Positions 42,889-44,921 of a DNA stretch of 64,000 bases are shown one piece after another. Origin of the DNA: Chloroflexus aurantiacus J-10-fl (GTDB taxonomy: Bacteria; Chloroflexota; Chloroflexia; Chloroflexales; Chloroflexaceae). The notes beneath the pieces are model-generated. The model worked only from the letters and a program-made list of their open reading frames with translations. It was not told where the DNA came from and did not search any database. Position numbers and translations under genes: made by a program. The DNA is taken from contig NC_010175.1 of assembly GCF_000018865.1 (NCBI RefSeq), forward strand, positions 3,534,001 to 3,598,000, written 5' to 3'. Each line of letters opens with the position of its first letter. Position 1 is the first letter of the stretch.

Positions 42889-42904
42889 TTGAAGGGAGAC
42901 TCTG

Positions 42905-43678
42905 TTGATTGCACGAATGGCTCGTCCACTGATCTTGGTGGTTGTGATAATGCTTGTGGCGTGTACGGCTTCAGCGCCGGTAGCCGACATGCCGTCGCCA
43001 ACAGCCGTGGTTCCAACCACAACACCGTCGACGTCACCCACATCCACGACGGCGCCAACGGTTGCTGCGCCGACCGCAGCACTGCCAACCGTCACCGCAG
43101 TACCGGCGACCGCAGTGCCGGTGGTAACGTACCGCGGTGCGCTGGTCGGACGCGATGCAAATGGTGCGTATACGCTGGGTGATCCGGCAGCTCCGCTCAC
43201 CCTGACCGACTATTCCGATTTTCTTTGAACGGTATGTCGCCGTCACGTGTTGACGGTTGAACCGGCATTGATCGAACAGTACGTTGTGACCGGGCGTGTC
43301 CTGTATGTCTTCCGTCCGGTATTGAACCATGGCGCGGCTTCCCTGATCACGACTGCGGCTGCCTTCTGTGCCGGTGAGCAAGACGCTTTCTGGCCGATGC
43401 ATGAATTGCTCTTCGAGCGACAGGGTGAAGTGGCGGCGACCCGTGATAGTGACCTACCGGCGCTTATGCGGTCGTATGCCGCTGACTTAGGGCTTGCTAT
43501 TGAGCCATTTGATGCCTGTATGAATGACGGTGCAGCGCAACGACTGGCTGAGACGCTTGATGCCGAACAACGTCAGCGTGGGATTCGCGTGCAGCCGGTT
43601 TTCGAGATCGGAGATATTCGCCTGGTAGGCTTGCAGACACTCGAACGATTTGCCAGCCTGATCGAGCGACAACCCTGA
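42905..43678 (+). CDS. DsbA-like thioredoxin-fold lipoprotein with in-frame TGA at the CxxC site (candidate selenoprotein)
   Basis: Read through, 257 residues. TTG start with GAAGGGAG SD. Lipoprotein signal (LILVVVIMLVAC), then a Pro/Thr stalk, then a DsbA_4-type thioredoxin fold: LTLTDYSDFL-(TGA)-TVCRRHVLTVEPALIEQYV continues to FCAGEQDAFWPMHELLFE and the cis-Pro loop VQPVFEIGD. The TGA at 43226-43228 (codon 108) is exactly where the family has the first Cys of the DFxCxxC motif, giving UxxC. The frame is otherwise open on both sides. A hairpin follows at SECIS distance. The alternative is a nonsense mutation TGC/TGT to TGA. Role: oxidising or reducing disulfides outside the membrane. Confidence 0.75.
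43229..43264 (+). promoter_or_regulatory. SECIS-like hairpin after the in-frame TGA
   Basis: CCGTCA (43240-43245), loop CGTGT, TGACGG (43251-43256), with an outer helix CGGT (43230-43233) / ACCG (43261-43264). The apical loop begins 17 nt after the TGA and contains G and U, as in bacterial SECIS elements. It could also arise by chance, since it lies in coding sequence. Confidence 0.45.
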
Positions 43679-43689
43679 CCTGGCAGGCG

Positions 43690-44921
43690 CTACATCCGGC
43701 GTAAGTACGGCGCCTGCCATTCAACGCTTAACACCAGCAGCCAGCCGATCAATGCACTACCGGCAACTACCAGCGGAACACTCCCGACCAGCTCAGCAAT
43801 ACTGCCGGCCAGCATACCGCCAAGCGGACTCAGCCCCATCAATGAGAGGGTAAACACACTCATCACCCTCCCACGCAGGTCATCGGGCACGATCAATTGA
43901 ATAAGCGTATTGGTCAGCGCCATCGTGGTCACACCGGCCCAACCACACAATCCAATAAACAAGAGAGCAAGCGGCACCGTGCGTGCCTGCGTAAAGCCGA
44001 TCAAGAGCGGTGCGTACACAGCAATGAGGCTGTGGTCAGGAGCTTACCGCGTGGCGCATCATCGCGTAATTGAGCGAGCGTCAGTGCTGCCACCAAAGAG
44101 CCAAAACCGCTTGCTGCCGACAACCATCCCAGTCCGGCGGCACCGATCTGAAGAATATCACGGGCAAAAATCGGCAAAAGCGGGATATGCACGAAGCAGA
44201 AGAAACTAACTGCACCGGCTCGCAAAAGCAATGCCCGTACAGAAGGTTCACTGGCAATGTACTGCAAACCGGCGCGCAACATATTGCCACGCTGCATACC
44301 GTTGGCCTGACGTGCATCCAACTGCATCAGCGAGAGACTGGCTAACACTGCACCAAAACTCAGGGCATTGAAGAGAAATGCCGGCCCTTCACCGATCCAT
44401 GCCACAACAATACCGGCTACTGCTGGCCCCATAGTGCGGGCACCGTTGAAGATGGAAGAATTGAGGGCAATCGCATTCAACAAATCTTCACGCCCTACCA
44501 TCTCGACGGTAAACGCCTGGCGGGCTGGTGCATCAAAGGCATTGACACAACCGAGCAGGAAGGCAAGAATCAGCACATGACTGATATGAACCGTACCGGT
44601 CAGCGTAAGCCCGGCCAGGGTTGCCGCGAGTATCATGGCAACCGATTGTGTGACCAGTAAAATGCGCCGCTTGGGGAAGCGATCGGCGACCGTTCCGGCG
44701 AAAAGGGTCAGAAACAATACCGGTAGCGAATTGGCCGCCGCAACCAGACCGAGGAGAAAAGGCGAGTCGGTTAATCGTAAGACCAACCAGCCCTGTGCCA
44801 CACTTTGCATCCACGTCCCGGTCAACGAAATCAGTTGTCCGAAGAAGAAGAGGCGATAATTGCGATGACGGAGTGCCCGAAACATTGCCGGGCGGCTGGA
44901 CAGGGTCTGGGTAGATCGCAT
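43690..44921 (-). pseudogene. MFS exporter gene with a one-base frameshift
   Basis: ATG at 44921, 306 codons in the first frame to a premature TGA at 44001, then the second frame continues from near 44024 to 43690. The first part has six to eight membrane segments and the MFS_3 pattern (RNYRLFFFGQLISLTGTWMQ, GTVADRFPKRRIL); the second has the last four (LALLFIGLCGWAGVTTMAL, LRGRVMSVFTLSLMGLSPLGG). Adding one base in TC-ATTGCTGTG near 44025 restores about 410 residues, the normal length of EntS-like exporters. Two bases downstream of its marR gene. Decayed, or a sequencing error. Confidence 0.8.

Follow-up and report, generated by a model that had tools for sequence, protein, structure and literature searches.

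The gene at 42905–43678 very probably encodes a DsbA-like UxxC selenoprotein that carries its own bacterial SECIS element, a reading to which we assign a probability of about 0.96. Four lines of evidence lead to it: the selenocysteine (Sec) machinery of the genome, the distribution of TGA and selA among relatives, a covarying hairpin, and purifying selection on the gene; insertion of Sec at the UGA is what we infer from them. The gene lies in the window, a stretch of 64,000 nucleotides corresponding to positions 3534001–3598000 of the single 5,258,541-base contig of the Chloroflexus aurantiacus genome. The analysis supports, from sequence only, that an exported redox lipoprotein of a Chloroflexus-type bacterium contains selenocysteine. 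The selenoprotein reading is right, but the family is already listed among predicted UxxC selenoproteins.

Gene frame and protein architecture

The frame runs for 258 codons from a TTG start to the final TGA and contains a single internal TGA (Table 1), just as the preliminary description had read it; if that TGA is read through, the product has 257 residues. The motif around the internal TGA is DYSDFL-U-TV-C-RRH. Alignment to the solved DsbA-like chains 4pwp and 4pwo (E about 1e-12) matches the TGA with the first Cys in the CPFC motif of these chains, which bears out the earlier assignment to the first redox Cys of a CxxC. The family pattern proposed at the same time, DFxCxxCRRF, was slightly off, since the two arginines are present in the window protein but are followed by H and not F.

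Table 1. Features of the gene and its surroundings (window coordinates)
Feature	Position	Strand	Basis
UxxC DsbA-like lipoprotein gene (predicted)	42905–43678	+	frame and translation, Pfam Thioredoxin_4, NCBIfam NF041057
Shine-Dalgarno-like AAGGGAGA (putative)	42892–42899	+	ends 5 nt upstream of TTG 42905; by eye
Presumed lipobox LVAC, codons 17–20; lipid-modified Cys would be codon 20	42953–42964	+	read from translation, by eye
In-frame TGA, proposed Sec codon 108, first position of UxxC	43226–43228	+	frame, translation, homologue codons
TGT, second (resolving) Cys of UxxC, codon 111	43235–43237	+	frame, translation
Bacterial SECIS candidate, hairpin CCGTCA-CGTGT-TGACGG	43240–43256	+	fold and covariation over 21 loci
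True stop TGA	43676–43678	+	aligned homologues finish about here

A Pfam Thioredoxin_4 match (2.9e-22) covers residues 89–254. N-terminal to this domain we read, by eye, a signal with LVAC, which we take to be a lipobox from the general pattern and which supplies the lipobox of the NF041057 family, followed by a Pro/Thr-rich linker. By domain family the protein is DsbA-like (Thioredoxin_4), with a putative role as a DsbA oxidase or DsbG isomerase. Four further DsbA-like matches in the same genome (E below 1e-18) have no stops and are Cys-type paralogues. Directly downstream on the minus strand, 43690–44921 holds what appears by eye to be a single MFS-type transporter in two overlapping frames (44001–44921 and 43690–44019), as if frameshifted near 44001–44019.

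To the orthologue in a second species of the genus (G008), dN/dS is 0.10 over the 149 codons after the TGA (pS 0.65, dS about 1.5) and 0.014 over 32 codons before it, the count starting at YRGALVGRD and omitting the linker. Judged by these ratios, purifying selection acts on the codons 3' of the TGA. The two genes are identical at the TGA and at all 17 bases of the hairpin.

Sec machinery in the genome

The preliminary description had named the absence of selABCD as evidence against Sec. All four genes are found in the same genome, each above its cut-off: selA (586.7 bits), selD (367.9 bits) and a tRNA-Sec gene (selC) with anticodon TCA (70.7 bits) exceed their curated cut-offs, and selB, taken together with the neighbouring match in its frame, reaches 342.6 bits against a cut-off of 242. 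Two further matches just above the cut-off of the tRNA-Sec model are tRNA-Ser according to ARAGORN. Among 14 control genomes, 5 exceeded the cut-off for tRNA-Sec, 2 for selB, 1 for selA and 2 for selD, with more matches below it.

The genome's own selD (L020, G000:C1:1171907-1172830, minus strand) has one in-frame TGA at U-AAK, directly before AAKLGPGAL, and thus looks like a selenoprotein too. One TGA is found in 29 of the 30 selD frames of the family given as loci (own included) and none in the remaining frame, that of G027; the codon at this position was read in L020 and L078 (both TGA) and in L072 of G027 (Cys). Formate dehydrogenase was considered as a further selenoprotein and rejected, as its eight matches in the genome contain no internal stops and none exceeds the cut-off. 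In three other genomes, one contig carries both the UxxC gene and selD, with about 4 kb between them (G013:C166, G014:C72 and G015:C164).

TGA and Cys among relatives

We searched 41 genomes of the family and read the codon at the TGA site; the Cys paralogues of the window genome and of G008 are outside these counts. Counting our own, 21 homologous loci from 18 genomes have TGA at this codon, which agrees with the earlier argument that its position is not chance, and other homologues carry Cys there. Nor are the orthologues uniformly Cys, the other finding that would have spoken against Sec. In the close group (51–74% identity to the window protein, 11 members with our own), TGA occurs in 8 genomes (G000, G004, G008, G016, G017, G018, G020 and G028), all with selA above the cut-off, and Cys in 3 (G005, G021 and G022), which have no selA match and no selD above the cut-off. 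This 8/8 and 3/3 split has a probability of 1/165 if the cases are independent. In the sister group (32–36% identity for the members aligned), 13 loci have TGA, while Cys is found in six other Chloroflexus genomes and in G027.

Both selA and selD exceed the cut-off in 18 of the 18 TGA genomes (in G018, selD is in two pieces). As selA does so in 34 of the 41 genomes and fails to in 7, 18 positives out of 18 would arise by chance at 0.011, a value that ignores kinship. tRNA-Sec scores at least 64.9 bits in 17 of the 18; the best match in G029, which is 88% complete, reaches only 45 bits. A tree of 33 rows requires five changes between Sec and Cys, including one within the outlying pair L051/L057. 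When Sec was tested against selA with the tree taken into account, the sample of 5 pairs was too small (median p 0.5), with no pair opposite in direction.

Two genomes count against this pattern. In G027, L039 is Cys (TGC) although selA, selB, tRNA-Sec and the hairpin are all retained, and selD of this genome is also a Cys form; from sequence, L039 looks like a recent Sec-to-Cys change. G001 has only a fragment of selA, below the cut-off, and its DsbA-like match is weak and contains both a TGA and a TAG, one of each. G006 (L092) and G005 (L091) each have a tRNA-Sec gene with anticodon TCA, no selA match, and neither selB nor selD above the cut-off; judged by this gene content, these tRNA genes are relics of a lost Sec system. 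The family thereby offers a natural experiment, with Sec forms, Cys forms after loss of the machinery, and a Cys form that still has its SECIS hairpin.

A candidate SECIS hairpin

A bacterial SECIS is a hairpin just 3' of the UGA, with about 16–37 nt between the UGA and the loop and a G in the apical loop. The hairpin of the window gene has this form, with 17 nt between the TGA and the loop CGUGU. Its conservation was measured over the 21 TGA loci, 20 of them distinct (alignment A1). This alignment omits L061, which is the same site as L033, as well as L057 and L059, which belong to another subgroup (SDFEUPFC) with a hairpin at a different offset; with these two counted in, the hairpin is present in 21 of 23 loci. 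The ten Cys loci (alignment A2) omit the distant paralogues L050, L051, L052 (two sites) and L058 and the Cys site of L056.

At the five inner pairs, all 100 of 100 cells are paired. Changes on both sides occur in four of these pairs (CG/UA, UA/GC, CG/UA and CG/UA), and one-sided changes number zero; 11 of the 20 distinct loci also have the sixth, outer pair. Compared with shuffled alignments of the 21 loci, more cells are paired (92.5% vs 71.3%), more are changed on both sides (24 vs 7.4) and the covariation score is higher (0.570 vs 0.232), with none of 500 shuffles as high for any of the three. Slid versions of the alignment are far lower on all three measures. Over the same loci there was no excess of pairs with a double change (5 vs 3.9, 133/500 shuffles) or of pair types (6 vs 7.7, 488/500).

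Of the ten Cys loci, only L039 of G027 has the complete set of five inner pairs. As a set they still pair above shuffles (65.0% vs 58.1%, 20/500). The helix has decayed in the three Cys loci lacking selA: by a hand count, 3 of the five inner pairs are left in L028, 1 in L029 and 2 in L031. In the six Cys loci from other Chloroflexus genomes, four of five remain, with only pair 19–27 broken, and this helix is perhaps a remnant.

A wider scan of named genomes, covering the best 80 of 443 relatives, gave 102 sites, six of which had neither TGA nor Cys and were not counted. In these best 80, the five pairs form at the same offset in 21 of 36 TGA sites vs 1 of 60 Cys sites. Ten of the 21 TGA sites and the one Cys site had already been counted above; the other 11 sites, in 9 loci, are additional.

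Single-sequence folding was rejected as proof of a SECIS. The z-score is not significant, at −1.2 for the window's own hairpin and between −0.1 and −1.4 across five TGA loci, and 4.7% of the 40-nt segments in the window (432 of 9138) contain a 6-bp hairpin. Synonymous recoding alone yields the five pairs in 5.2% of cases.

Proposed function and alternative readings

Taken together, the machinery in the genome, TGA in 8 of the 11 close orthologues (own included) and the covarying hairpin support the decoding of this TGA as Sec that was originally suggested. SelB carrying Sec-tRNA(UCA) would bind the hairpin just downstream of a ribosome at the UGA, and selenocysteine would be inserted in place of termination. 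The product would be a membrane-anchored, extracytoplasmic thiol-disulfide oxidoreductase of the DsbA-like type with a Sec-x-x-Cys catalytic motif. The Sec selenol would act as the attacking residue on its putative substrates and Cys111 would resolve, forming a selenenylsulfide.

A Cys codon, TGC or TGT, is one base from TGA, and the stop could therefore reflect either gene decay with a nonsense mutation at this codon or an error in sequencing. Neither fits a TGA that is kept in 21 loci of 18 genomes next to a covarying hairpin, nor a dN/dS of 0.10 downstream of it. Because a second Chloroflexus species has the same TGA at near-saturated synonymous divergence, sequencing error is untenable. 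By these comparisons, both decay and error are excluded for practical purposes, and we regard this explanation as the least credible of those considered. Only marginally more credible, and still highly improbable, is that the UGA is read as another residue through a suppressor or code change, or that the region encodes two separate proteins. A 143-aa frame does open at GTG 43247, but we see no Shine-Dalgarno-like stretch upstream of it (by eye), its product would be without the motif, the Cys relatives have one continuous frame, and the genome has the Sec machinery.

The Sec reading could itself carry a further layer, in which insertion is conditional and termination at the UGA serves as a regulatory switch responding to selenium or oxygen. 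Recoding of UGA as Sec can in general be conditional, and the four Cys-type DsbA-like paralogues could stand in for the selenoprotein; no specific sequence evidence points to such a switch, and we consider it unlikely here.

Relation to known families

The window protein matches NCBIfam NF041057, 'Rcas_1661 family thioredoxin-like (seleno)lipoprotein', with 300 bits (cut-off 190) over model positions 2–247 of 247. It is a full-length member by score, with no difference found, and the name of the model allows Sec or Cys in a thioredoxin-like lipoprotein. NF041057 matches 27 of 27 members of alignment A3, which omits L053–L056, at E≤0.001 (an E threshold, not the curated cut-off). Table 1 of a 2026 review lists NF041057 as a 'DsbG-like protein' with a UxxC motif, 'Predicted with high confidence' (PMC13188914). 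That entry, which is computational only, has the same model and motif as the window protein; given the match and this listing, the family is not new as a predicted selenoprotein, and in the review it is predicted only. The main text of the review contains no word beginning 'chlorofle'.

A Sargasso Sea survey describes DsbA-like and DsbG-like UxxC selenoproteins, with a downstream SECIS predicted for the DsbA-like ones (PMC1088965). These marine proteins share UxxC with the window protein and were assigned to COG2761 and COG1651; the likeness is by description only. A 2006 count gives three selenoproteins in three families for Chloroflexi and two DsbG-like selenoproteins, one of them in Symbiobacterium (PMC1794560). 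Sequence homologues of known structure are the DsbA-like chains 4pwo/4pwp and 7unn/7uno and BdbD 3eu3 (E 1e-12 to 2e-9); 4pwp, 4pwo and 7unn have Cys where the window protein has the proposed Sec. A literature search on selenoproteins or selenocysteine in Chloroflexus aurantiacus, Roseiflexus and Chloroflexota returned no title about the window protein, and one under the name Rcas_1661 returned nothing.

Further UxxC groups in Chloroflexota

In fifteen TGA sites of the wider scan (best 80 of 443 relatives), as in L057 and L059, no more than three of the five pairs form at the window gene's hairpin offset, or the site was not counted there. Folding of 16 of the 17, with L145 left out, gave another hairpin, by eye, in many. 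In one group of eight (alignment A4) the hairpin is CTGGCG-CGGGT-CGCCAG or a variant of it, the TGA and the loop are 28 nt apart and 48 of 48 cells are paired; its covariation is weak (56/500 shuffles as high) because only one pair varies. UxxC DsbA-like loci with hairpins at other distances are L142, L148, L149, L154, L155, L156, L167 and L172, and also L121, L123, L169, L057, L059, L134 and L168.

Seven such proteins were scanned with NF041057. L057, L134, L142 and L148 score 164–183 bits, below the cut-off of 190, and L121, L155 and L168 exceed it with two matched stretches each, i.e. tandem domains. Sec machinery was assessed for the genomes of L057 (G028) and L059 (G029). The groups with hairpins at other distances, some of them below the cut-off, are possibly new. 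We give an even chance to a broader picture, in which the DsbA-like UxxC proteins of Chloroflexota would fall into several groups that may go back to independent changes from Cys to Sec and that each place the hairpin at a distance of their own (17, 28 or another number of nt from UGA to loop). Tandem-domain forms would be among them, as would groups below the cut-off that naming by NF041057 would miss, and lineages that lost selA would have switched to a catalytic Cys and lost the hairpin. Finally, L101 and L102 each contain two UxxC sites, each site with the same kind of hairpin, which suggests tandem or fused UxxC domains in the close group too.
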